A stretch of 10,737 nucleotides of DNA from Chloroflexota bacterium (GTDB taxonomy: Bacteria > Chloroflexota > Anaerolineae > Ardenticatenales > Ardenticatenaceae), in the NCBI GenBank assembly GCA_003520455.1, contig DOUV01000385.1:1-10737 (forward strand), in the 5' to 3' direction. Under the pieces are notes generated by a model. That model was given only the letters and a program-made list of their open reading frames with translations, searched no databases and had not been told where the DNA came from. Positions 2-10,737 of this stretch are shown here, one piece after another. The translations under genes were made by a program, and so were the position numbers. Each line of letters begins with the position of its first letter. Within the stretch, counting starts at the first letter, position 1.

Positions 2-316
2 GCCCGCCAGGAATTGGCCCTTTATTTGGGTGTGGTTCTGGCTCTCGACCGGACCGGGCCACTCGACCCGGAGGAGGCAACCCGCGTGCGGGCGGCCCTC
101 GCGCGTGGCGATGGGGTGGCAGCGGCCGAGGTGCTCAGCGACGAGAGCCTGCGCCGCTTCGCGCTGGCCGGCACCCCCCAGGAGGTGGTCCGCCAGGTCA
201 TCGATCTGTTCGATGCCGGCGCCGGTCGGGTCGAGTTCGGCACGCCGCATGGGCTCAGTGAGCTCGAGGGGATCCGCCTGCTGGGCGAGCGGGTGCTCCC
301 GGCGCTGCGAGACTGA
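2..316 (+). CDS. LLM-class flavin/F420-dependent oxidoreductase, C-terminal part (5' truncated by window)
   Basis: The reading frame is open from the window edge (first full codon at base 2) to a TGA at 314-316, giving 104 residues of a longer protein. The tail has the typical C-terminus of bacterial luciferase-like monooxygenases of the methylene-tetrahydromethanopterin reductase (Mer) type. It reads 'SDESLRRFALAGTP', then 'EEVV'-like helix residues, an 'RVEFGTPHG' strand, and a closing 'LLGERVLPALRD' helix. Such enzymes are cytoplasmic TIM barrels using FMN or F420 for hydride transfer. The flavin-binding and substrate residues lie outside the window, so the substrate cannot be named. The TTG at 14 is only an internal in-frame codon, not a real start. 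The next gene begins 17 bases downstream on the same strand, which suggests co-transcription. Family assignment is fairly sure; specific function is unknown. Confidence 0.82.
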   Translation, partial: ARQELALYLGVVLALDRTGPLDPEEATRVRAALARGDGVAAAEVLSDESLRRFALAGTPQEVVRQVIDLFDAGAGRVEFGTPHGLSELEGIRLLGERVLPALRD

Positions 317-872: not shown

Positions 873-1154
873 TCAGGCCGGCTTGCCCTCCAGCACCACG
901 TAGCCGTGTTTCTCTAAATCCTCGAAGATCTCCGCCACGAACGCCGGTGAGACCGGACTGATCTCGTAGCCGACGATGCGTGCAATCTCGGCGATAGTCC
1001 GGCTGCCGTCGCTGAGGTTCATTAACTCGGCCATTCGGTCCATGAACTGGGGGTCGCGGGACGCGTATTTCGGTCCAAAGGCGATGGCCTGGTATTTCAT
1101 GTTGATCAGCCCCGGCCGGAGTTTGCGGGGCCGTCTGCTCAGTTGTTCTTCCAC
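873..1154 (-). CDS. Small winged-helix-like protein A (peptidase-associated; HTH_47/PqqD-like)
   Basis: A 93-aa cytoplasmic protein, the last gene of the minus-strand cluster. I chose the GTG start at 1154 because AAAGGAG sits 9 bases upstream (1164-1170). It is a paralogue of the two small proteins at 4495-4848 and 4865-5155. All share a basic lead-in with 'G-[LM]-[IV]-x-MK' (here 'PGLINMK', residues 14-20) and a conserved Tyr at residue 30. They also share an 'S-[DN]-G-x-R-[TS]-[IL]-x-x-I' helix-turn (here 'LSDGSRTIAEIARIVGYEI') and a closing 'DLE-x-x-G-[YF]' helix-strand. This looks like a small winged helix, similar to the C-terminal winged-helix domain of DUF4910/DUF2172 aminopeptidase-like proteins and to PqqD-type folds. 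It follows M28 peptidase A by 84 bases. I infer a partner or adaptor for that enzyme. DNA binding is not excluded, but three copies each beside a peptidase argue for a protein-level role. Confidence 0.78.
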   Translation of the reverse strand: MEEQLSRRPRKLRPGLINMKYQAIAFGPKYASRDPQFMDRMAELMNLSDGSRTIAEIARIVGYEISPVSPAFVAEIFEDLEKHGYVVLEGKPA

Positions 1155-1163
1155 GGGGGGGTG

Positions 1164-1170
1164 CTCCTTT
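1164..1170 (-). promoter_or_regulatory. Ribosome binding site deciding the GTG start of small protein A
   Basis: Read on the minus strand this is AAAGGAG, 9 bases before the GTG at 1154. The next in-frame ATG is 18 codons in and would remove the conserved basic lead-in, so the GTG is preferred. Confidence 0.6.
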
Positions 1171-1198
1171 CTAAAGGCGGGCGGGGCGGTTGCGCGAC

Positions 1199-1217
1199 CG
1201 GGCGGGTGGGACGCCCG
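1199..1217. repeat. G/C-rich inverted repeat between M28 peptidase A and small protein A
   Basis: CGGGCG (1199-1204) and CGCCCG (1212-1217) form a 6-bp stem around a 7-base loop within a very GC-rich 84-base spacer (1155-1238). A second, overlapping pair, TGGGA (1207-1211) and TCCCA (1221-1225), is also possible. No T-run follows. It may be a partial attenuator or simply a dispersed GC-rich palindrome; I cannot tell which from one copy. Confidence 0.25.
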
Positions 1218-1238
1218 CGCTCCCAGGGGGTGGCCTGT

Positions 1239-2996
1239 CTATGAGGGGTGCGTGTCTAACGTGGACAGCGAGCCGGCCATGTCGCGGAGGGCTCGGGCCT
1301 CAGCTTCGGCCCTCGCGAAGAGCTTCTCAGAGAGTTGCTCGGCCTGGTCTCGGAGGGTCGATTGCAGGGCGACCGCGTCGTGGCGGACGAGCGTGAGGCA
1401 CGAGGCAATCGCCTGGCTGTCGCGCTCGGCGTTGTAGCGCAATTCGTCCTCCAAGCGCTCGACGAAGGAGTCGGTCGCCGCCGCGTCGGCGGCCAGCATT
1501 TCCTGGCGCGCCCGCCGCGCGACCGCGCCCAGCCGGTGCTGTGCGTCTGAAGCCACATCGTACATCCAGGCCAGTGCCTGCCGGGGCCCCGCCGCCGCCA
1601 CCTGATAGCTCATGACGGCGGTCGCCCAGGCGCAGCGGGCCATCTCGCCCGGGTCGAGCTTGTCGACGGTGTCGTACTGGGTGTGCCAGATAATGCTCGG
1701 CCACTGAAATATACCGACGGCTGGTACCCCCCACCCGGCGATACACGAGTTGTCGCTGTGGATGCCGTAGGGCAGAACCTCGAACTTGAATGGTGACGTT
1801 CCTGTCTGGGCCTGGATCAGTGAATCCGACGACACGCCTGTGGCCTGGGGCTCACTGCCGAGAGCCGTGTACCAGTGGCAGGACTCCTTCAGCAGGTGGA
1901 CGCCCAGATCGTTCAGGAAGGTAGGTGTCGCGGCCGAGGCGCGGGTGAGAATCAGGGGCCCGCCGACGACATGGGGCCTGGCGCCGACCGTGTCGGCGGT
2001 CCACGAGCCGATGATGTTCCTCACGTCCTCGCCGAGCGAATGCGGATAGACGTTGGACATATGGCCCTCGGGTCCGAACAGGAAGCGGATCGAGCGGCGC
2101 GGGCGCGGGAGCGTTCCCGCCTTGATCAACCGGTTGATCGAGTCTGCGGCCTCCAGCAGCACGGCACAGCCGGAGTTGTTGTCCATCGCGCCGGGGCGGT
2201 AGTGGTCGAGATGGGCCATACAGAGGAATTCTTCCTCCGGCAACTCCTCGCCCTCGATAGTGCCGAGGACATTCTCCATGACACCATCGAAGGTGCGAGC
2301 ATCGATCTGGCAGTAGCCCGTCACCGGTCCTTGTGCCAGTAGCCCCCGCAGATAATCGCCCATCCGGGGCGAGATTGAGAGGCCCCAGCCTTTGAGCCTG
2401 CCTCCGCTCCCGAATTCGCGCTCAAAGAAAGTGTACCAGAGAACCATGTCGGGGTACTGCTCGCGGGTCTTGACGTGCGGGATCGCGAGGATGTCGTCCG
2501 AGATGTAGCCCAGGGCCCCGCGTTTCTCAATCGCGTGCAGGTACACCAGCCAGGTGGCCCCGCGGTCGGCGAAGATGATCTTGCCACGCACATCTTTGCC
2601 CTCGTAATCCTCGTCGGATGTTCCGTTCCCCACGTAGACAATCTCGGCGGTCACGCCCTCGGGTGGAGTCGCTGCCGACCAGGGGTGGATGCAGGTGGGC
2701 GTGTTGAAGAAATTGACGAGGGTCTTCTCTTCAGGGGATAGCACCTTGAAGAGGCCGGCATGCGGCTCCCAGGCGTAGGGCACGTCCCAGTTCCACGGCA
2801 CGGGCGTGTTGTCCATCGGCCAGGTGACGACATCCCGTTCGAGGCCCAGTCTCCCGAGCGTCGCCAGCACGTACTCGGCCGCTTCGTGGTAGCCGCGCGA
2901 CCCCAGGCTACGATCGTACCGGCTCAGCTCGCGCACGTGGGCGAGGCAGCGGCGTCCGTCGATCGTGTTGGCCATGATCTCACCAGGTGACGGCAT
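1239..2996 (-). CDS. M28/DUF4910-like zinc metallopeptidase A with PA-type insert
   Basis: A 585-aa cytoplasmic enzyme, probably an aminopeptidase acting on imported peptides. The start at 2996 is supported by AAGGAG 8 bases upstream and by colinearity with paralogue B. Residues 1-60 form a helical lead-in. Residues ~115-235 resemble a PA (protease-associated) domain, with 'GKDVRGKIIFADRG' and 'KRGALGYISDD'. The catalytic core follows. 'AHLDHYRPGAMDNNSG' supplies His262 and bridging Asp272. 'FLFGPEGHMSNVY' supplies Glu310, 'TADTVG' supplies Asp335 as the likely third ligand, and 'SDN' Asp415 is conserved. 'WHTQYDTVDK' supplies His438. Classical M28 enzymes have Glu-Glu where this one has Pro-Glu-Gly, as DUF4910 proteins do (from memory). 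The C-terminus (~455-575) is helix-rich and Glu/Ala/Arg-rich, and includes 'ERDSQAIASC', conserved in paralogue B. There is no signal peptide. The fold is confident; the substrate is inferred from the neighbouring peptide importer. Confidence 0.88.
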   Translation of the reverse strand: MPSPGEIMANTIDGRRCLAHVRELSRYDRSLGSRGYHEAAEYVLATLGRLGLERDVVTWPMDNTPVPWNWDVPYAWEPHAGLFKVLSPEEKTLVNFFNTPTCIHPWSAATPPEGVTAEIVYVGNGTSDEDYEGKDVRGKIIFADRGATWLVYLHAIEKRGALGYISDDILAIPHVKTREQYPDMVLWYTFFEREFGSGGRLKGWGLSISPRMGDYLRGLLAQGPVTGYCQIDARTFDGVMENVLGTIEGEELPEEEFLCMAHLDHYRPGAMDNNSGCAVLLEAADSINRLIKAGTLPRPRRSIRFLFGPEGHMSNVYPHSLGEDVRNIIGSWTADTVGARPHVVGGPLILTRASAATPTFLNDLGVHLLKESCHWYTALGSEPQATGVSSDSLIQAQTGTSPFKFEVLPYGIHSDNSCIAGWGVPAVGIFQWPSIIWHTQYDTVDKLDPGEMARCAWATAVMSYQVAAAGPRQALAWMYDVASDAQHRLGAVARRARQEMLAADAAATDSFVERLEDELRYNAERDSQAIASCLTLVRHDAVALQSTLRDQAEQLSEKLFARAEAEARALRDMAGSLSTLDTHPS

Positions 2997-3004
2997 TGTA
3001 TCAG

Positions 3005-3010
3005 CTCCTT
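3005..3010 (-). promoter_or_regulatory. Ribosome binding site for M28 peptidase A
   Basis: AAGGAG on the minus strand, 8 bases before the ATG at 2996. It favours this start over the internal ATG seven codons later. Confidence 0.65.
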
Positions 3011-3091
3011 CATTGATCCAGTCGGAAGTGACTCAAAATGGCTGTGGCGCGCCGCGCATGAGACGGTTCGAAAGCAGTAGACGTCGCACCA

Positions 3092-3118
3092 CCAACTGCT
3101 GTTGGCTGGGCCAGCCCA
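3092..3118. other. Overlapping alternative hairpins after the M20 gene
   Basis: Two stems share a strand. CCAAC (3092-3096) pairs with GTTGG (3101-3105) around TGCT. TTGGCTG (3102-3108) can pair, with one bulge, with 3111-3118 (CCAGCCCA region). They are mutually exclusive. They lie just past the stop of the M20 gene, in the 125-base gap before peptidase A. Short stems and no T-run make a regulatory role uncertain. I found no convincing promoter in 2997-3121. Confidence 0.22.
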
Positions 3119-3121
3119 AGA

Positions 3122-4498
3122 TCAGGTCTGACCGGCGTGGCTGTATTCCCAGAAGGTGGCCGCCACCCATTTGATGCCATTCAGGTAATAGGGAACAGTG
3201 ATGTGCTCATTGGGGAAGTGCGCGCGCCGGTCGGGGTCGGCTACCCCGATCAGGGCACCCTCGACGCCGAGTCGCTGCCCGATCCAGCACCACTTGTCAC
3301 CGAATTCGAAGCTGTGCGGCAGGAGGTAGGTGCTCACGCCGACCTGGCCGGCGCCGCGCAGCAGCGCCTGGCCCAGCGGCGAGTCGGCCGAGCCTGGGAT
3401 TGGCTTGAAGCGGCGCAGCACCTCGATCTCGATATCGCCGAATCCGTGGCGGTCCAGGTGGTGCCGGAGCTTCGCCAGGATGTCGTCGGGATCTTGCTCG
3501 GGGACCAGGTGAAAGTTGACCCAGGCGCGGGCCGCACACGGGATCAGGCTGGTCGCGTTCGGCCGGTCGAGCCCAGGTTCGATGCCGTGGATCGAACAGG
3601 TCGGCTCGTAGAGGAGCCGGCGAATCGCCTCGACCCCCCGCGCGCCGGTGACGAACTGCGGGATGCCCCAGAACTCGAGCTCGCTCTCATCGTGCCAGGG
3701 GTACTCGGCCATCAGCGCCAGCTCGGCCGGCGTCGCGGCCTGGACGTTGTCGTAGAACCCCTCGACGCAGACGCGCTCGTCGGCGTCTTTGAGAGTGGCG
3801 AGCGCCCAGACCAGGCGGAAGGCCGCGTCGGGGATGAGCTGGGTCCAGATAAAGTAGGGCTCTTTGGTGCCAGTCCTGGCCTGTAGCTCGACTGCCAGGG
3901 AGCCGGCCGTGCCCAGGTGGATCGGACTGTTGCCGTCGCGGGTGAACCCGGCGTCCAACAGGAGGACGGCGTCGGCCCGGAGCAACTCGCGGTGGGCGTC
4001 GACGAACTCGCCCAGGTGGCCGGTTTCGCTCTCGTCGTCGCCCTCGATCATGAACTTCAGGTTGACCGGCAGGTCGCCGGCCGCCTCGATCCAGGCCTGG
4101 GCGGCCTTGAGCCCGGCGGCGAGATTCCCCTTGGGATCGGCGGCGCCCCGTCCGATGATATCGCCGTCGCGACGCTCGGCGGCGAAGGGCGGGCTGATCC
4201 AGTCCTCGTCCGGCCCCGGGGAAACGACATCGTAGTGGCCCGTGATGAGCAGCGTAGGTCGCTCCGGCCGCTGGGCGCTCCGGCCGACGACCACCGGGTT
4301 ATGTCTCGACGGGAGCACCTCGGCGTCCAGGCCAATCTCGCCCATCATCATCGCCGCCACCAACTCAGCGCAGGCCTCACAATCGGCCTCGTTCTCGGTC
4401 ACGCTGGGCTGGCGCATGACGCGCTGAAGGTCCGCGATAAACAGTTCGGCGCGGTCGTCAACGGTATGGAGGACTGCTTCCAGTGGTGTTGCTCTCAC
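3122..4498 (-). CDS. M20-family zinc metallopeptidase (ArgE/DapE/CPG2 type) with Asp at the catalytic Glu position
   Basis: A 458-aa cytoplasmic protein of the usual M20 length. Members hydrolyse dipeptides, N-acyl amino acids or related amides with two zinc ions. Visible motifs are 'LLITGHYDVV' (ligand His88, Asp90), 'GRGAADPKGN' (bridging Asp121), 'IEGDDESET' (Asp155, ligand Glu156), 'LLLDAGF' (Asp182) and 'AHFPNEH' (final ligand His427). The dimerisation (lid) domain spans roughly residues 195-370. In characterised relatives such as CPG2 and PepV the catalytic Glu is 34 residues after the bridging Asp. Here that position is Asp155, so activity may be altered. The GTG start at 4498 overlaps the TGA of the preceding small protein by four bases (GTGA), and AGAGGA lies 6 bases upstream. 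This points to translational coupling. The substrate cannot be stated; a role in trimming imported peptides is inferred. Confidence 0.9.
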   Translation of the reverse strand: MRATPLEAVLHTVDDRAELFIADLQRVMRQPSVTENEADCEACAELVAAMMMGEIGLDAEVLPSRHNPVVVGRSAQRPERPTLLITGHYDVVSPGPDEDWISPPFAAERRDGDIIGRGAADPKGNLAAGLKAAQAWIEAAGDLPVNLKFMIEGDDESETGHLGEFVDAHRELLRADAVLLLDAGFTRDGNSPIHLGTAGSLAVELQARTGTKEPYFIWTQLIPDAAFRLVWALATLKDADERVCVEGFYDNVQAATPAELALMAEYPWHDESELEFWGIPQFVTGARGVEAIRRLLYEPTCSIHGIEPGLDRPNATSLIPCAARAWVNFHLVPEQDPDDILAKLRHHLDRHGFGDIEIEVLRRFKPIPGSADSPLGQALLRGAGQVGVSTYLLPHSFEFGDKWCWIGQRLGVEGALIGVADPDRRAHFPNEHITVPYYLNGIKWVAATFWEYSHAGQT

Positions 4499-4848
4499 GT
4501 CCCATCCTCTCGGGCGTCGATCACGGTCATGAAGCCCAAGCGCTCCAAATCCCTCACCATGCGGGCCAGAACGTCAACTTCAATTGGGCCGATCTCGTGG
4601 CCCAGGACGCGGGCAATCTGGCCCAGGCTTCGTTGGCCGTCACTGTGATTGAACAATTCGTACAGGTAGCCAAGCCAGCCCCGGCGGCCGAGCCGGCTTT
4701 CCGGGATCACCGTCGTGTACGCCTCGTCCAGGGCGATGGTCAGGCGCTTCATCTCGATCATGCCGAGCTGCTTACGCAGCGGCTTGATCAAGGCCAGCGG
4801 GGACTTCGGGCCGCCACGAAGGTCGTTGACTTCCAGCGGAGGGTTCAT
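4495..4848 (-). CDS. Small winged-helix-like protein B2 (peptidase-associated; HTH_47/PqqD-like)
   Basis: A 117-aa protein if started at the ATG at 4848, 16 bases after the end of small protein B1. A TTG at 4863, directly after the B1 stop, would add five residues but has no better ribosome site. After a ~20-residue extension it carries the shared pattern. This comprises 'IKPLRKQLGMIEMKR' (residues 21-35), Tyr44, 'HSDGQRSLGQIARVLGHEI' and 'DLERLGFMTV'. Residues 57-66 ('GWLGYLYELF') are an aromatic helix also found in B1 ('GFLGYMYEIC') but not in protein A, so B1 and B2 are closer to each other. Its stop overlaps the M20 start by four bases, so its translation is coupled to that peptidase. I infer a partner or adaptor role. 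It has no catalytic motif, signal peptide or membrane segment. PqqD-like RiPP-recognition is the main alternative. Confidence 0.8.
   Translation of the reverse strand: MNPPLEVNDLRGGPKSPLALIKPLRKQLGMIEMKRLTIALDEAYTTVIPESRLGRRGWLGYLYELFNHSDGQRSLGQIARVLGHEIGPIEVDVLARMVRDLERLGFMTVIDAREDGT
4505..4510 (-). promoter_or_regulatory. Ribosome binding site inside small protein B2, serving the M20 GTG start
   Basis: AGAGGA on the minus strand, 6 bases before the GTG at 4498 and within the last codons of small protein B2. With the 4-base GTGA overlap it supports termination-reinitiation coupling. Confidence 0.5.
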
Positions 4849-4864
4849 GGGATCGCCACCCAAA

Positions 4865-5155
4865 TCACGGGCTGATGGTCATGTAGCCCATGGTTTCGAG
4901 ATCACAGACCAGGCCGTAGATGGCTTCGATCGGCAGCGGCCAGAGCTCGTGGCCCAGGGCCCGCTGGATCTCGGCCAGGGTCCGCTCGCCGTTGCTGAAG
5001 TTGCAGATCTCGTACATGTAGCCCAGGAAGCCGAGCTGGCTCAGATGCCCACCTTCCATCTGGTCGTACTTCGGTGCCAGACGGACGGTCACTCGCTTCA
5101 TCTCGACCATGCCCCGTTGCTTCATGCAGGGCTTGAGCTGTTCGATGCGTGCCAT
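4865..5155 (-). CDS. Small winged-helix-like protein B1 (peptidase-associated; HTH_47/PqqD-like)
   Basis: A 96-aa cytoplasmic protein. The ATG at 5155 follows the peptidase B stop (5159-5161) by three bases. Its GGGAGG ribosome site (5163-5168) lies inside the end of the peptidase B gene, so the two are tightly coupled. The sequence carries 'LKPCMKQRGMVEMKR' (residues 7-21), Tyr30, 'GFLGYMYEICNFSNGERT' (42-59), 'AEIQRALGHE' and 'DLETMGYMTI' at the C-terminus. The 'KPCMKQRGMVEM' lead-in is reminiscent of the 'CEPQLGKRGLYP' lead-in that I recall before the C-terminal winged helix of DUF4910/DUF2172 proteins. This is the best single clue that these small proteins are detached versions of that domain. 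No catalytic residues are seen. Cys10 and Cys51 are not shared with protein A or B2. Confidence 0.82.
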   Translation of the reverse strand: MARIEQLKPCMKQRGMVEMKRVTVRLAPKYDQMEGGHLSQLGFLGYMYEICNFSNGERTLAEIQRALGHELWPLPIEAIYGLVCDLETMGYMTISP

Positions 5156-5158
5156 GGA

Positions 5159-6871
5159 TCAGCCTCCCACCCGTCCGGCCCGCAGCAGCCGGGCGTAGGC
5201 AACGAGGTCCTGCTCTTCCTCGCGCTGTTTGCGTTCGAGGCGCGTGACCAGGGCCTGCCGCGCGGTCGCCAGGCGGTCACGCGCCTCCGCCGGATCGTGC
5301 CGCACCAGCTCCTCGCACGAGGCAATCGCCTGGCTATCGCGCTCACTCAGATAGCGGAGCAGGTCCACCCTGGTGTCGAGCGTCGTCTGAAGGTTGCCAT
5401 CGCCGGCATCGAGCAGCGCCTCGCGGGCCAGGTGGGCAGCCTCGCTCTGGCGGGCCATCGAGCGCGCGGCGACGTTGTGCATGAGCGAGAGTGCCTCGGC
5501 CGGGCCGGCATTGGCGACGAACCAGGCTGCCGTGGCGAAGACCCAACTCACCTTGAGGAACTCCTCCGGGCTGCACTTGTCGACGGTGTCATACTGGGTG
5601 TGCCAGAAGATGTTGGGCTTGCGGTACAGCTCGATGCCGGGGATCCCCCAGGCGACAATCTGGAGGCTGTCACCGCCCATGAAGCGGGGATCGACACGGA
5701 AGGAGAATGGCGTCCGCGCTCGCGGGCCGGGCGCCGGGAACTGCACCGAGACTTCCTCCAACAAGTGGGTCAACAGGTCATCGATGTAGTGGGGGCGCGC
5801 CGGCGTCGTCCGGGTCAGCACCAGCGGCGCGTGGAGTTGCTCCGGGTCGCCGCCGCAGTGGGACGAGAGGCCCATCATCACATCGGAGAGCCGCCCGGCC
5901 TTCTCCATGTGGGCGCCATAGACGTTGGTGTGATGGCCCTCAGGCCCGTAGAAGGAGAGGATCGTGCGCTTCGGCCGGGGCAGATCCCCCCGTTCGACCA
6001 GGGCGTGCAGCGCGCGGAGGGTCTCCGTGATGTGCGCGCAGCCGGCGGCATTGTCGATCGCGCCCGGCCGCGTGTGGCAGATGTGTGCCGCCATCAGGAT
6101 TTCTTCCTGCGGATAGGTGTTGCCGACCAGCCGGCCCATGGGGTTCTCCATGATCCCTTCGAAGGTGCGCGTCTCGACTCTGGCGTACACCTTGACCGGG
6201 CCTTGCTGGAGAAGGCCACGCAGGTAGTCGCCCATGCGCGGGGAGATGGTCAGACCAAATCCCTTGAGGTAGCCGCCCTCTTCATCCCGCTCGTAGAGGG
6301 TGTTCCACATGACCACATCGGGGAAGGTCTCGCGCGTTTTGAGCGGCGGCATCGCGATCACGTCGTCGTTGACGAAGCCCAGGGCACCGTATTTCTCGAC
6401 GGCCAGCGGATGGGTCCGCCAGGCATAGCCTTTCTCGACCAGGCAGATCTTCCCGCGGACATCCCTGCCCTCGTAGTGCTCGTCGCGATCGCCTGGACCG
6501 ACGGAGACCAACTCGGCGGTGACCCCGCCGGCTGGCGTCGCACCCGACCAGGAGTTGATGCAGGTTGGCGTCTCGGCGAAGGTCACCACGACGCGCTCCT
6601 CCGGTTCGATCACTTTGAAGATCGCATCGCGCGGCTCCCAGGCCGGGGGAACAATGTAGTTGCCGATGCGGGTCTTGTTATCCAGCGGTGCGTCGAGGCT
6701 GTCCACCTCGATATTCTGGCCGCGGAGATAGCGGCGGACGTACTCGCAGGCCTCATGGTACTCACGAGAACCCAGGCTACGGTGGTACTGGGTGATCTCG
6801 GCCACATGGGCCATACAGTTCTCACCGTTCAATTCGTCGGCTATCAGATTTTTCACATGCGGGCTGATCAC
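5159..6871 (-). CDS. M28/DUF4910-like zinc metallopeptidase B with PA-type insert
   Basis: A 570-aa paralogue of peptidase A, colinear throughout. The GTG start at 6871 is supported by AAAGGAGG 4 bases upstream and by N-terminal alignment with A ('RSLGSREYHEA' in B, 'RSLGSRGYHEA' in A). The PA-like region is at ~118-235 ('GRDVRGKICLVEKG', 'EKYGALGFVNDD'). Catalytic motifs are 'AHICHTRPGAIDNAAG' (His263, Asp273), 'SFYGPEGHHTNVY' (Glu311), 'GGDS' (Asp401) and 'FWHTQYDTVDK' (His424). The 'HICH' and 'GPE' forms are closer to DUF4910 proteins than to classical M28. Where A has Asp335, B has 'SHCGGD', so His338 may replace that ligand. The helical C-terminus ends with a charged, possibly coiled segment (~540-560) and contains 'ERDSQAIASC'. 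No signal peptide is seen, so it is probably a cytoplasmic aminopeptidase-type enzyme. It is the first gene after the permeases and is coupled to small protein B1. Confidence 0.88.
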   Translation of the reverse strand: MISPHVKNLIADELNGENCMAHVAEITQYHRSLGSREYHEACEYVRRYLRGQNIEVDSLDAPLDNKTRIGNYIVPPAWEPRDAIFKVIEPEERVVVTFAETPTCINSWSGATPAGGVTAELVSVGPGDRDEHYEGRDVRGKICLVEKGYAWRTHPLAVEKYGALGFVNDDVIAMPPLKTRETFPDVVMWNTLYERDEEGGYLKGFGLTISPRMGDYLRGLLQQGPVKVYARVETRTFEGIMENPMGRLVGNTYPQEEILMAAHICHTRPGAIDNAAGCAHITETLRALHALVERGDLPRPKRTILSFYGPEGHHTNVYGAHMEKAGRLSDVMMGLSSHCGGDPEQLHAPLVLTRTTPARPHYIDDLLTHLLEEVSVQFPAPGPRARTPFSFRVDPRFMGGDSLQIVAWGIPGIELYRKPNIFWHTQYDTVDKCSPEEFLKVSWVFATAAWFVANAGPAEALSLMHNVAARSMARQSEAAHLAREALLDAGDGNLQTTLDTRVDLLRYLSERDSQAIASCEELVRHDPAEARDRLATARQALVTRLERKQREEEQDLVAYARLLRAGRVGG

Positions 6872-6875
6872 GTTG

Positions 6876-6883
6876 CCTCCTTT
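6876..6883 (-). promoter_or_regulatory. Strong ribosome binding site deciding the GTG start of peptidase B
   Basis: AAAGGAGG on the minus strand, 4 bases before the GTG at 6871. The strong match compensates for the non-ATG start and suggests substantial translation. Confidence 0.6.
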
Positions 6884-6998
6884 CGTCTCACAGCTCGGCT
6901 CTCCTTGCAGGGGGGCTCACACGTGGGCCCCGGCAGGTGCGACACCCCTTTGTCGTAGTCTGAGGGCTTGCGGACGGCCACCTGACACTCCGGCTGCG

Positions 6999-7029
6999 CC
7001 CTCGCGGAGGGTATAGGCGCGTCGCGCCT
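6999..7029. other. Tandem hairpins between the dppC-like gene and peptidase B
   Basis: Two adjacent inverted repeats lie in the 186-base gap. CCCTC-GCG-GAGGG spans 6999-7011. AGGCGCG-T-CGCGCCT spans 7015-7029; it folds as ~5-6 bp with a small loop. They begin about 28 bases after the dppC-like stop in the minus direction. No T-run follows, so this could be an attenuator, an mRNA-stabilising element or a processing site. A possible promoter in the gap would be TTGTCC...TATACC over about 7035-7010, but its spacer is only 14 bases, so I do not call it. Confidence 0.3.
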
Positions 7030-7057
7030 GGACAATTGCGCGGCCCTGGCTCCACAC

Positions 7058-8020
7058 CTAGACGCCCTGTCTCAGACGTGGGTCGAGGGCGTCTCTCAAG
7101 CCATCACCCAGAAAATTGAGGCTGAGCAGGGTCACGAAAATGAACACACCCGGAAAGATGGCGATCCAGGGATTGTTCCACAAGTAGGTCTGAGCGTTGA
7201 ACAACAGGTTGCCCCAGCTCGGCGTAGGTGGCTGGATACCCAGGCCCAGGAAGCTCAGCGCCGACTCCACGTTGATGGCGGCTCCGGCCCCTAACGTCGT
7301 CGCGACAATCATCGGGGCCATCGCGTTGGGCAGCAGGTGCTGCAGCACGATCCGGTGGCGCGGGACGCCCACGCAGCGGGCGGCCAGAACGAAATCCTGC
7401 GCCTGGATCGATAGAACAACGCTGCGAACGATCCGGGCGACCCCAGTCCAGGAAAACGCAACCAGAATCAAGACGATATTCCAGAAGCCGCCCTTGATTC
7501 CCAATTGAAGGCGCAACACCTGGGCAAGCACGATGAGGACAGCCAGCGCCGGGAGTGAGCGCACCACGTCTACGATCCGCATGGTCACTTCGTCGAAGGC
7601 GCCGCCGATGTAGGCTGCGGTGGCACCGATGAGTCCGCCGAGGCCCACGCCGAGCAGGGCGACGACGAAACCGACCGCCAGCGAGATCCGTCCGCCGTAG
7701 AGAACGCGCGTGAAGACGTCGCGGCCGAGTTCATCCGTGCCCATCCAATGGCTGTGGTTGGGCGGCTGAAACCGTTCGCGCAGGCTGGTTTTATTCGGGT
7801 CGTACGGGCTCAGTGGTGCCAGGACAGAGAGCAGTACCAGGAGGACCAGGACCCACAAGCCCACCATGGCCAGGCGGTGCCGCCGAAGTTGAAACCAGGC
7901 CCGTCGCCATTCACTCTCGCCCGCCGATGGCCGGGGGATGCCGTGGAGCGCCTCACCAAGCGCACCTCTCTCCCCAGCCGTCGGGCTACTGGTAGCGGAT
8001 TCTCGGATCGAGGAAGCCAT
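7058..8020 (-). CDS. Peptide-type ABC transporter permease (DppC/OppC family)
   Basis: A 320-aa inner-membrane permease. After a ~48-residue cytoplasmic N-terminus comes the first membrane segment (~51-70). The family signature 'HWMGTDELGRDVFTR' is at 91-105, and further hydrophobic segments lie at about 113-138, 155-170, 180-195, 235-258 and 285-303. The cytoplasmic EAA loop is 'DFVLAARCVGVPRHRIV', then 'HLLPNAMAPMIV' (~209-239), the contact site for the ABC ATPase. The C-terminus 'LGDGLRDALDPRLR' is typical. The ATG at 8020 lies inside the end of the dppB-like gene (35-base overlap in another frame). There is no strong ribosome site, so translation is probably coupled to the upstream permease. 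It pairs with the dppB-like permease to form the channel. The substrate is likely peptides, but related clusters carry other solutes. Confidence 0.92.
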   Translation of the reverse strand: MASSIRESATSSPTAGERGALGEALHGIPRPSAGESEWRRAWFQLRRHRLAMVGLWVLVLLVLLSVLAPLSPYDPNKTSLRERFQPPNHSHWMGTDELGRDVFTRVLYGGRISLAVGFVVALLGVGLGGLIGATAAYIGGAFDEVTMRIVDVVRSLPALAVLIVLAQVLRLQLGIKGGFWNIVLILVAFSWTGVARIVRSVVLSIQAQDFVLAARCVGVPRHRIVLQHLLPNAMAPMIVATTLGAGAAINVESALSFLGLGIQPPTPSWGNLLFNAQTYLWNNPWIAIFPGVFIFVTLLSLNFLGDGLRDALDPRLRQGV

Positions 8021-8954
8021 AAGTGATATCTGCGAGTAAGTTCAAGAAGACTACCAGGAATGCCAGCAACATGAGAATGGCCATCGAAACGGAGAAATCG
8101 TTGCCGAGCACCGAGTCGTAGAGCAGCTTGCCGACGCCGGGGTAGGAGAAGACGGTCTCGACCAGAATCGAGCCGCCGATGAGGGCCGGCAGGGTGTTGG
8201 CCAGCAGCGTCACCATTGGGATCAGGGCATTCTTCAGCGCGTGACGATAGAGGATGACGTGCTCGCTCAGCCCCTTGGCTCGTGCGGTTTGGATGTAGTC
8301 CTGTCGGACGACCTCGAGCAAGCTCGAACGCATATAGCGCGCCCACGTTGCCATTGAGCCGAGTGCAAGAACGAACACAGGCATCACCAGGTGACTGATA
8401 CGATCGGACAGGCTATTGGCAAAGCCGGGCTGGACGTCCGCGCGGACGATCCCACCGGCCGGGAACCAGTGAAGGCGCACCGCGAAGACGATGATCATCA
8501 CCAGACCCAGCCAAAACGCTGGCACCGCGTAGCCGACGAAGGCAAAGATGGTTGCAACGTAATCTCCGAGTGAGTAGGGCCGCAGCGCTGAGTAGATCCC
8601 GAGTGGGATCGAGACCACCAGACTGATCGTGAGGGCCAGCCCCGCCAGGATGAGAGTGTTGAGAATGCGCGAGCCGACCAGGTTGGTGACCGGAATCCGG
8701 TAGGCACGCGAGTAGCCCAGGTTCCCCTGGAGCACCTGGCCCATCCATTTGGCATAGCGGACTGGAAACGGATCGTTCAGGCCGTAAAGATCCTTCAACC
8801 GCTCAATATCGGCCGGTGTGATGCTCGGGTCGCCGAGGACGAGCAGGTCCAAGGGATCGCCTGGCATCGAGACCAGGAGTGCAAAGCTCAACACCGAGAT
8901 GAGCGCCAGAACTGGGATCAAGAAGACGATCCGGCGCAGAATGAAACGGGACAT
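7986..8954 (-). CDS. Peptide-type ABC transporter permease (DppB/OppB family)
   Basis: A 322-aa inner-membrane permease starting at the ATG at 8954 ('MSRFILRRIVFLIPVLALIS'), the canonical start for the family. An in-frame extension to 9113 runs through the hairpin-containing spacer and into the preceding gene, so it is rejected. Membrane segments are at about 9-30, 98-123, 132-160, 187-205, 244-266 and 288-312. The large periplasmic loop after the first segment contains 'MPGDPLDLL' and 'YGLNDPFPVRY', typical of this family. The EAA loop is 'DYIQTARAKGLSEHVILYRH', then 'ALKNALIP' (~219-246). The C-terminus 'YGFLDPRIRY' is standard. It forms the channel with the DppC-like partner, whose start lies within this gene's last 35 bases. 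Weak ribosome site (AGG ~5 bases upstream). Confidence 0.92.
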   Translation of the reverse strand: MSRFILRRIVFLIPVLALISVLSFALLVSMPGDPLDLLVLGDPSITPADIERLKDLYGLNDPFPVRYAKWMGQVLQGNLGYSRAYRIPVTNLVGSRILNTLILAGLALTISLVVSIPLGIYSALRPYSLGDYVATIFAFVGYAVPAFWLGLVMIIVFAVRLHWFPAGGIVRADVQPGFANSLSDRISHLVMPVFVLALGSMATWARYMRSSLLEVVRQDYIQTARAKGLSEHVILYRHALKNALIPMVTLLANTLPALIGGSILVETVFSYPGVGKLLYDSVLGNDFSVSMAILMLLAFLVVFLNLLADITYGFLDPRIRYQ

Positions 8955-9066: not shown

Positions 9067-10737
9067 TTATTTGCTAATATCCCACTCGTGGACGTTGTAG
9101 AGCCAGCCCTCATTTGTGCCGGACGGCTGGACCCCGGTGACGCCCGTACGAATGGTGACGGACTCTGACTTGAAGTAGAGCGGTAGGAGCGGTAGATCGC
9201 GTGTCCAGATTGTCATCAACTTCGCGACGATTTCCTCACGCTCCTTGACATCCAACGTCTGGTCGATCGGCTTGGCGTTCCAGGCATCCTCGTATTCCTT
9301 GCTGCAATAGTCTCCCAGGTTGCCACCCGACCAGTTATTGGCTTCGCTGGGAATATCCTGGCAGCGGAAGTCTTCGGACAAGACGTTGGGGTTGCCACCA
9401 AAGTTGAACAGGAAGACACTCGGCCAGCCAAAGTGGAAGAGGTGGCTCGGGTCGTAGATCAGCTGCGGCGGCAGATTATCGATATCGACCTGCACGCCCG
9501 CCTGCTTCCAATAGTCGGCCACGATGGCCTCCGCGGCTTCTTTGGTCTTGTCGCCGGCGACCGTACGGATGCTGACGGCAAATTTCTCGCCCTTATCGTT
9601 GGTCAAAATGCCGTCCGCCCCTTTTTCCCAGCCAGCTTCGGCGAACAGTTCGGCTGCCTTGTCGGGGTCGTAGGGATAATGCATGATGTGCGCCTTTACC
9701 TCCTCAGTGAGGAGCGGGTGGCGCGGTGAGAGCCAAGATTCGGCCACGGGATTCCGACCCTGGAACAAAGCGTCGACCATTTCTTCGCGGTCGATGGCAT
9801 AGAGCAACGCCTGGTGGATCCGCACGTCGCCCAGCTTCGGGTCTTTCTGGTCGTTGAGGGCGATCCAGTCCCATCCAAAGCCTGGAATGGTGACGACCTT
9901 CCCGCCGCCATTGGCATCCCACTGCTGTTGGATGGTCTGGGCCTGATCGATTGTAATGTTCGGGATGACGGTCACATCGACCTCGCCCGAGAGGATATTC
10001 GCCACCAGTGTATTCGTGTCTGAGAAGAACTTCCAGACGATCCGGTCGATCTTGGGCTTGCCCAGGAAGTAGTCGGGGTTGGCCTCAAGTGTCATGTGCG
10101 ATCCGGGGACCCACTCGACGAGTTTGTATGGACCCGTGCCGATGAACTTCGTGGTCCAGTAGGGATCGTTCTTGAACTTCTCCTTGTCGCTCTTGTACTC
10201 CTCTTCCAGGATATGCCGTGGTAGCGGGCGAGCCGTTGTACTGAGTTGCGGGAGACCCTGGTCGGCGAAGACGTACTTCTCTTTCCAGTAGACCTTGAAG
10301 GCGCGATCGTCAATCTTCTCGATCTTCGAGATCTTCTGCGCGTCGCCCTTGCCGTAGGCCGGGATATCCGGATCGACCATGATCTGCCAGCCGAAAATGA
10401 CATCCTCGACGGTCAACGGTGTGCCGTCGTGCCACTTGATGTTGGGGCGGAGTTTCCAGGTCACTTCCATCGTGCCGTCGGGATTCACTACCCAGTCGCC
10501 GTCCTTGATCGAAGGAATTTTCTCGACCAGCCAGGGCTGGACGTTGAGGTCGGCGTCGCGGTAGGTCCAGTAGGCGTTCAGGGATTGTTCGGCTTCGATG
10601 GCCGCAATCTGGGCGATCATCACGCCGAAGCCTTTTGGCTCCTGCGACATGCCGATGGTCAACGTCTTCATCGCGGAGGCCGGCGCAGCGGTCGCCGCGG
10701 GGGCTTCGGTCGGTGCGGCGGCCTGGGTTGGTGCGGG
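9067..10737 (-). CDS. Peptide-type ABC transporter substrate-binding lipoprotein (SBP_bac_5), 5' truncated
   Basis: 556 codons are visible, open to the window edge. The ATG at 10671 is internal: the frame continues upstream as an Ala/Pro/Thr-rich linker ('APTQAAAPTEAPAATAAPAS'), the usual spacer after a lipobox Cys. The signal peptide and true start therefore lie beyond 10737. The body is a family 5 (cluster C) extracellular binding protein. It shows 'WKLRPNIKWHDGTPLTVEDV', 'IGTGPYKLVEWVPGSHM', 'NPDYFLGKPKIDRIVWKFF', 'LSGEVDVTVIP', 'ALLYAIDREEMVDALFQG' and 'YDPDKAAELFAEAGW'. Such proteins capture di- and oligopeptides, nickel or other solutes outside the membrane and deliver them to the DppBC-type channel encoded next. 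The peptidases downstream favour a peptide ligand. The stop is TAA at 9067-9069, followed by hairpins. Confidence 0.93.
   Translation of the reverse strand, partial: PAPTQAAAPTEAPAATAAPASAMKTLTIGMSQEPKGFGVMIAQIAAIEAEQSLNAYWTYRDADLNVQPWLVEKIPSIKDGDWVVNPDGTMEVTWKLRPNIKWHDGTPLTVEDVIFGWQIMVDPDIPAYGKGDAQKISKIEKIDDRAFKVYWKEKYVFADQGLPQLSTTARPLPRHILEEEYKSDKEKFKNDPYWTTKFIGTGPYKLVEWVPGSHMTLEANPDYFLGKPKIDRIVWKFFSDTNTLVANILSGEVDVTVIPNITIDQAQTIQQQWDANGGGKVVTIPGFGWDWIALNDQKDPKLGDVRIHQALLYAIDREEMVDALFQGRNPVAESWLSPRHPLLTEEVKAHIMHYPYDPDKAAELFAEAGWEKGADGILTNDKGEKFAVSIRTVAGDKTKEAAEAIVADYWKQAGVQVDIDNLPPQLIYDPSHLFHFGWPSVFLFNFGGNPNVLSEDFRCQDIPSEANNWSGGNLGDYCSKEYEDAWNAKPIDQTLDVKEREEIVAKLMTIWTRDLPLLPLYFKSESVTIRTGVTGVQPSGTNEGWLYNVHEWDISK

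Follow-up and report, generated by a model that had tools for sequence, protein, structure and literature searches.

Separate small genes beside M28-like proteins in an Ardenticatenaceae locus: a predicted winged-helix domain that is fused in relatives

The closest described relative of the system reported here is CA_C2195 (PDB 3k9t), a protein of 434 amino acids (aa) in which DUF4910, DUF2172 and a winged helix of the HTH_47 family are fused in one chain (Das et al. 2014, PMC4000134, in its accessible sections). The same sections leave the function of DUF4910/HTH_47 open, propose that the winged helix reads peptides, by analogy with MetAP2, and report that it makes trimer contacts in 3k9t. 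MetAP2 is placed there in the M24 family, with a winged helix that is inserted and not detached. Here we analysed a stretch of 10,737 nucleotides from a Chloroflexota bacterium of the Ardenticatenaceae (GenBank assembly GCA_003520455.1, contig DOUV01000385.1; this whole stretch is called the window), in which the domain has genes of its own. Three small proteins, A, B1 and B2, lie directly beside two M28-like proteins, M28-A and M28-B, and an M20 peptidase-like protein.

A comparable split is described for lasso-peptide biosynthesis, where the B protein is divided into segregated B1 and B2 proteins (PMC10368454, accessible part). The lasso-peptide B proteins have an order of structural elements different from that of the small proteins considered here. 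Their peptidase, we assume, belongs to another peptidase family than the M28-like proteins of the window. Searches of one open-access paper library on DUF4910, DUF2172, HTH_47, M28 and CA_C2195 listed no split M28/winged-helix pair. Both the fused form and, elsewhere, a segregated B1/B2 pair have been described; split M28/winged-helix pairs are a new variation.

Three small proteins and the domain fused in their relatives

M28-A (1239..2996, minus strand, 585 aa) is followed by A (873..1154, minus, 93 aa), and M28-B (5159..6871, minus, 570 aa) by B1 (4865..5155, minus, 96 aa); B2 (4495..4848, minus, 117 aa) stands next to the M20 protein (3122..4498, minus, 458 aa). Local BLOSUM62 scores were 118 for A and B1, 129 for A and B2 and 208 for B1 and B2, i.e. 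25, 23 and 42 standard deviations over shuffled sequences (300 shuffles each). These scores mark the three small proteins as genuine paralogues of one another; M28-A and M28-B are likewise paralogous in sequence. Both the paralogy of the small proteins and their positions beside the two M28 proteins and M20 had been proposed in a sequence-only reading of this DNA, and both hold; the shared motifs it quoted, G[LM][IV]xMK, a Tyr, S[DN]GxR[TS] and DLExxG[YF], are found in all three.

Searching with M28-B returned 77 proteins, mostly of two size classes (~555–600 aa and 640–720 aa), plus fragments. A C-terminal tail resembling the small proteins is present in 26 of the 77, which make up the longer class, and relatives of M28-A and M28-B of ~670–690 aa carry the small-protein domain fused at the C terminus. 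The ten most distant tails scored 8 to 32 bits against a profile built without them. The break between M28-B and B1 corresponds to a place within the linker that fused proteins have here, and this linker is of similar length; the stretch from M28-A to A is longer than its counterpart in fused A-type proteins.

A tree of the small domain (81 rows, of which 65 are small proteins and 16 are tails of fused proteins; P0026, P0104, P0106, P0139 and P0144 omitted) divides into two halves, A with 22 small proteins plus 6 tails and B with 43 small proteins plus 10 tails (Shimodaira–Hasegawa-like approximate likelihood ratio test, SH-aLRT, 99), in agreement with the M28 tree. Small A is placed among tails from the M28-A line, and B1 and B2 among those from the M28-B line; the sister relation of B2 and B1 is modestly supported (82). 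Tails and tree together show A, B1 and B2 to be homologous, by common ancestry, to the C-terminal domain fused in many M28/DUF4910-like relatives.

The sequence-only reading had taken the domain to be detached and to have become a separate gene. This is well supported by the fused relatives, by the pairing in the tree and by the first structural match of B1, which is 3k9t (see below). A stretch named there as preceding the winged helix, 'EPQLGKRGLYP', is indeed present in four of the six HTH_47 proteins found, and B1 has 'KPCMKQRGMVEM' at this place. Duplication of the small protein together with its enzyme describes A and B1, each with an M28 protein of its own, but not B2, which is the sister of B1 and has no M28 of its own; M20 is of another family, and its tie to B2 is one of position only. 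The earlier idea of a detached domain is right for A and B1. It also holds in kind for B2, which is a spare copy and not one belonging to M20. The further suggestions of that reading, a subunit coupled to the enzyme with a role in substrate access, assembly or peptide recognition, are putative.

The M28 tree (78 rows, with P0027, P0038, P0057, P0058, P0064, P0067, P0086 and P0097–P0103 omitted, and with 'fused' meaning a tail of at least 75 aa) requires five changes between fused and split states, four of them forced by starred branches; it does not itself give the direction of change, and it does not resolve the deepest branching of the M28-A line. We also examined 80 distant loci from bacterial and archaeal species genomes, the best of which is 33–35% identical to M28-B. 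The domain lies in the same frame at 65 of them by a profile that includes 13 of these loci, and at 35 by a profile trained on none of them. It is in a separate open reading frame (ORF) at two and gave no match at 1e-3 at 13. Among these 13, contig ends truncate L017 and L079, and L062 extends as far as the end of its contig.

Because distant relatives are fused, at these loci and in the distant rows of the tree, fission is the likely direction of change, at least once in each of the A and B lines, and the domain would thus have left the chain separately in the two. The converse history, in which separate small genes are ancestral and were later fused to M28 genes in several lineages, is compatible with the undirected change counts and with the unresolved base of the M28-A line. 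We regard it as unlikely, since it would need many independent fusions at one place, and 3k9t, like the distant rows and most distant loci, is fused.

Predicted fold and gene boundaries

The model of B1 has the element order strand, four helices, strand, and is predicted to adopt a circularly permuted winged-helix fold as in 3k9t. Its first PDB match is the HTH_47 domain of that structure (residues 349–434), at a weak E of 0.11. In profile searches with HTH_47 (PF16221), A scored 20.6 bits (E 3.3e-4), below the cut-off of 27.1 bits, and matches at E ≤ 0.1 were obtained for 19 of the 65 small proteins, the best at 2.7e-4. Alignment of the small proteins with six HTH_47 members by hhalign gave a probability of 74% and an E of 2.8e-5 (single comparison) over 50 columns. 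The recognition element of ribosomally synthesised and post-translationally modified peptides has another order, three strands and then three helices (PMC12710340, accessible part), which is not that of the B1 model. PqqD is absent from the Pfam hits of the window and of the 65 small proteins, a result that involved no direct comparison and does not exclude kinship. We predict a winged-helix fold for the small proteins.

Winged helices are common among regulators, and some of the small proteins gave weak HTH-family matches, so they might instead bind DNA and regulate the operon, with only the fold in common. This seems quite unlikely to us: they are closest, line by line, to the C-terminal domain of M28-like proteins, and three copies per operon would be unusual.

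M28-A and M28-B passed the cut-off of PF04389 (peptidase family M28, 21.3 bits) with 62.1 bits (E 7.7e-17) and 43.2 bits (E 4.8e-11), respectively. Against DUF4910 (PF16254), M28-B scored 14.8 bits (E 0.013), below the cut-off of 26.6, and M28-A gave no hit; four of ten scanned fused relatives (P0050, P0059, P0062 and P0088) passed. The M28-B model has a long helical part after the M28 core (residues 457–563), and these extra helices, which precede the winged helix, set it apart from CA_C2195 / 3k9t. Structural matches of the model, spanning ~420–490 residues, are transferrin receptor and glutamate carboxypeptidase II. According to these structural matches, the likeness consists of an M28 core with a PA domain and a helical part; unlike the system described here, both are eukaryotic membrane proteins without a winged helix, and transferrin receptor is a non-peptidase (PMC4000134, accessible sections).

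Both M28/small pairs share one reading frame, with a single in-frame stop and no further stop in between: TAG followed by 28 open codons between M28-A and A (a gap of 84 bases, 1155–1238, minus), and TGA followed by one codon between M28-B and B1 (3 bases, 5156–5158, minus). By chance, two pairs of two would agree in frame about once in 9 cases, so the agreement is weak alone. It would suit the view that the split genes are still partly made as fusions by read-through of the stop, which we nevertheless hold to be very improbable, given this chance, the Shine-Dalgarno-like stretches and start codons that A and B1 have of their own, and the recurrence of split proteins as separate database entries. 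Barely credible, although the short genes adjoin proteins with eroded active sites, is that they are decaying remnants of a lost domain, as seven positions are invariant across the 65 small proteins and these recur across many contigs.

Linkage and spread of the split pairs

For small and M28 proteins from near the clade of the window, we compared the lengths of the longest contigs given for them. Equal-length contigs of at least 3 kb yielded 22 small/M28 pairs, whereas 400 shifts gave 0.08 on average and never more than 4 (P0021, P0068 and P0138, which have no contig given, and P0026, P0027, P0139 and P0083–P0103 were left out). One group of equal length (36,067) holds B1, B2, A, M28-B and M28-A together, and another (15,451) B1, B2, A and M28-A. 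A cognate small protein was present on an equal-length contig for 10 of 28 split M28 proteins vs none of 13 fused ones (Fisher p 0.017). Thus, with contigs identified by their equal length, linkage of split cognate pairs appears to recur, in support of the sequence-only reading. Two further groups concern fused proteins: at length 31,595 three fused M28 paralogues (P0045, P0052 and P0054) may share one contig, and at 22,838 one contig may hold both a split B-type and a fused A-type M28 (P0035 and P0069).

Close relatives found sit in metagenomic or partly named data. Two database proteins of an Ardenticatenaceae bacterium are nearly identical to those of the window, P0064 (3 differences to M28-A over 585 residues) and P0104 (1 difference to B2 over 117). 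Among 400 Chloroflexota genomes, a relative of M28-B at 1e-30 occurs in 8, always in frames of 662–701 aa, and the small-protein profile matches 2, once within a 667 aa frame and once in a 253 aa frame. One of 72,556 plasmid records matched, at 24.6% identity.

Single loci elsewhere show other arrangements. In L006 (Bacillota, 10001–12102, plus) an M28 gene of 577 aa overlaps a winged-helix ORF of 140 aa, and in L042 (KSB1, 6520–8634, plus) an in-frame TGA precedes the helical part, so that the winged helix stands in an ORF of its own. These splits could reflect sequencing error, frameshift or decay and hence are not counted as proof. In a Heimdallarchaeota locus (L021), an 83-codon frame with a winged-helix match (13733–13981, plus) lies downstream of a fused M28 gene.

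Active sites, gene context and proposed role

In 71 aligned M28-family proteins the zinc-binding His, the zinc-binding Glu and the last His are invariant. The general-base Glu is found in none of them: its position is taken by Pro in 64, including M28-A and M28-B, Ala in 3, Leu in 3 and Asp in 1. The catalytic Asp is kept in 21 of the 71 (M28-A among them), and Cys stands there in 33 (M28-B among them). The absence of the standard general base from all 71 speaks for either a binding role or a non-classical chemistry common to them; the same loss is described for CA_C2195 (PMC4000134, accessible sections). M20 (PF01546 E 4.7e-23, PDB 4mmo 2.7e-48, and its motif) has Asp at its general-base position, where 17 of 17 readable Chloroflexota relatives have Glu (20 were fetched; L109, L110 and L118, in the wrong frame, were not counted). 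All three 'peptidases' of the array are therefore atypical at this position. The earlier designation as zinc peptidases is sound as to family, the M28 and M20 assignments passing curated Pfam cut-offs, but doubtful for M28-A and M28-B because the general-base Glu is missing.

The nine listed genes of the cluster are all on the minus strand, in the transcription order substrate-binding protein, two permeases, M28-B, B1, B2, M20, M28-A, A. The substrate-binding protein of a peptide-type ATP-binding cassette (ABC) transporter (9067..10737, minus) is truncated at the window edge and matches PF00496 (E 2.2e-74); its top NCBIfam match is Opp4A, under the Opp4A cut-off. The permease ORFs at 7986..8954 (minus; start at 8954 placed from the ORF and start codon context) and 7058..8020 (minus) are presumably DppB-like and DppC-like. 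B1 and B2 are 16 bases apart, the last 4 bases of B2 also belong to M20, and 125 bases separate M20 from M28-A. The opposite strand carries a gene of the TIGR04076 family (334–696, plus; E 2.6e-19) and, at 2–316 (plus), the end of a gene for an F420-dependent luciferase-like oxidoreductase.

We consider it probable that A, B1 and B2 are winged helices set free by fission, which would bind their M28-like neighbours in trans and recognise imported peptides. Fission in the A line and in the B line would have produced separate winged-helix genes, and the separate winged helix may bind the M28-like body in trans. By analogy with MetAP2 and lasso-peptide B1, it might read the peptides that this array's transporter brings in. 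B2 would be a putative second specificity subunit and M20 would trim imported peptides, while the M28-like parts may carry out some chemistry without the usual general base. No signal peptide was seen by eye, and the proteins would thus reside in the cytoplasm, where they follow on from the uptake system. The winged helix might instead serve assembly, because that of 3k9t is reported to make trimer contacts.

A number of observations weigh against binding in trans and peptide recognition by detached winged helices. As to fold, none of the 65 small proteins scanned reaches the HTH_47 cut-off. B1 and B2 gave no hit in the Pfam scan of the window proteins, the Foldseek search with B1 found no match at E ≤ 0.001, and winged helices of GATOR1 tie with 3k9t in VIA-align of the B1 model. 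Binding has two observations in its favour, each with a limit. A model of M28-B and B1 read through as a single chain places B1 packed on M28-B (predicted local distance difference test 93.1, predicted template-modelling score 0.92), but the single chain forces the two parts together, and the model comes without a predicted aligned error. In each line, the identities within six presumed small/M28 pairs vary together (r 0.83 and 0.85; 2/720 and 4/720 permutations), which shared history alone could explain.

As to linkage, adjacency outside the window rests on equal lengths of contigs and not on DNA, and the counted pairs share contigs and are not independent. An A-type small protein (P0143) shares a contig of equal length with a fused B-type M28 (P0043), and among equal-length contigs no partner was seen for the split P0044 and P0046–P0049; partners of the split groups P0060 + P0065 and P0083–P0085 were likewise not seen. 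As to function, the genes described around fused members of the CA_C2195 family point to sugar modification (PMC4000134, accessible sections), which speaks against a general peptide role. Relatives of the transporter or M20 were found near none of the 80 distant loci (blastp 1e-8, frames of at least 100 aa; a lower bound, many loci being short), and a peptide context is thus not general.

Fission followed by binding in trans nevertheless remains our preferred reading of the locus. Only tentatively, and as a rather doubtful step beyond it, we suggest a modular handling of peptides, in which one type of M28-like body without a general base would be combined with exchangeable peptide readers, A, B1 and the spare B2, in an operon that would import peptides and trim them with an altered M20. 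M28-like proteins with a C-terminal winged helix are found in many bacterial and archaeal lineages. The natural split pairs allow body and winged helix to be studied apart, with A, B1 and B2 swappable on either body.

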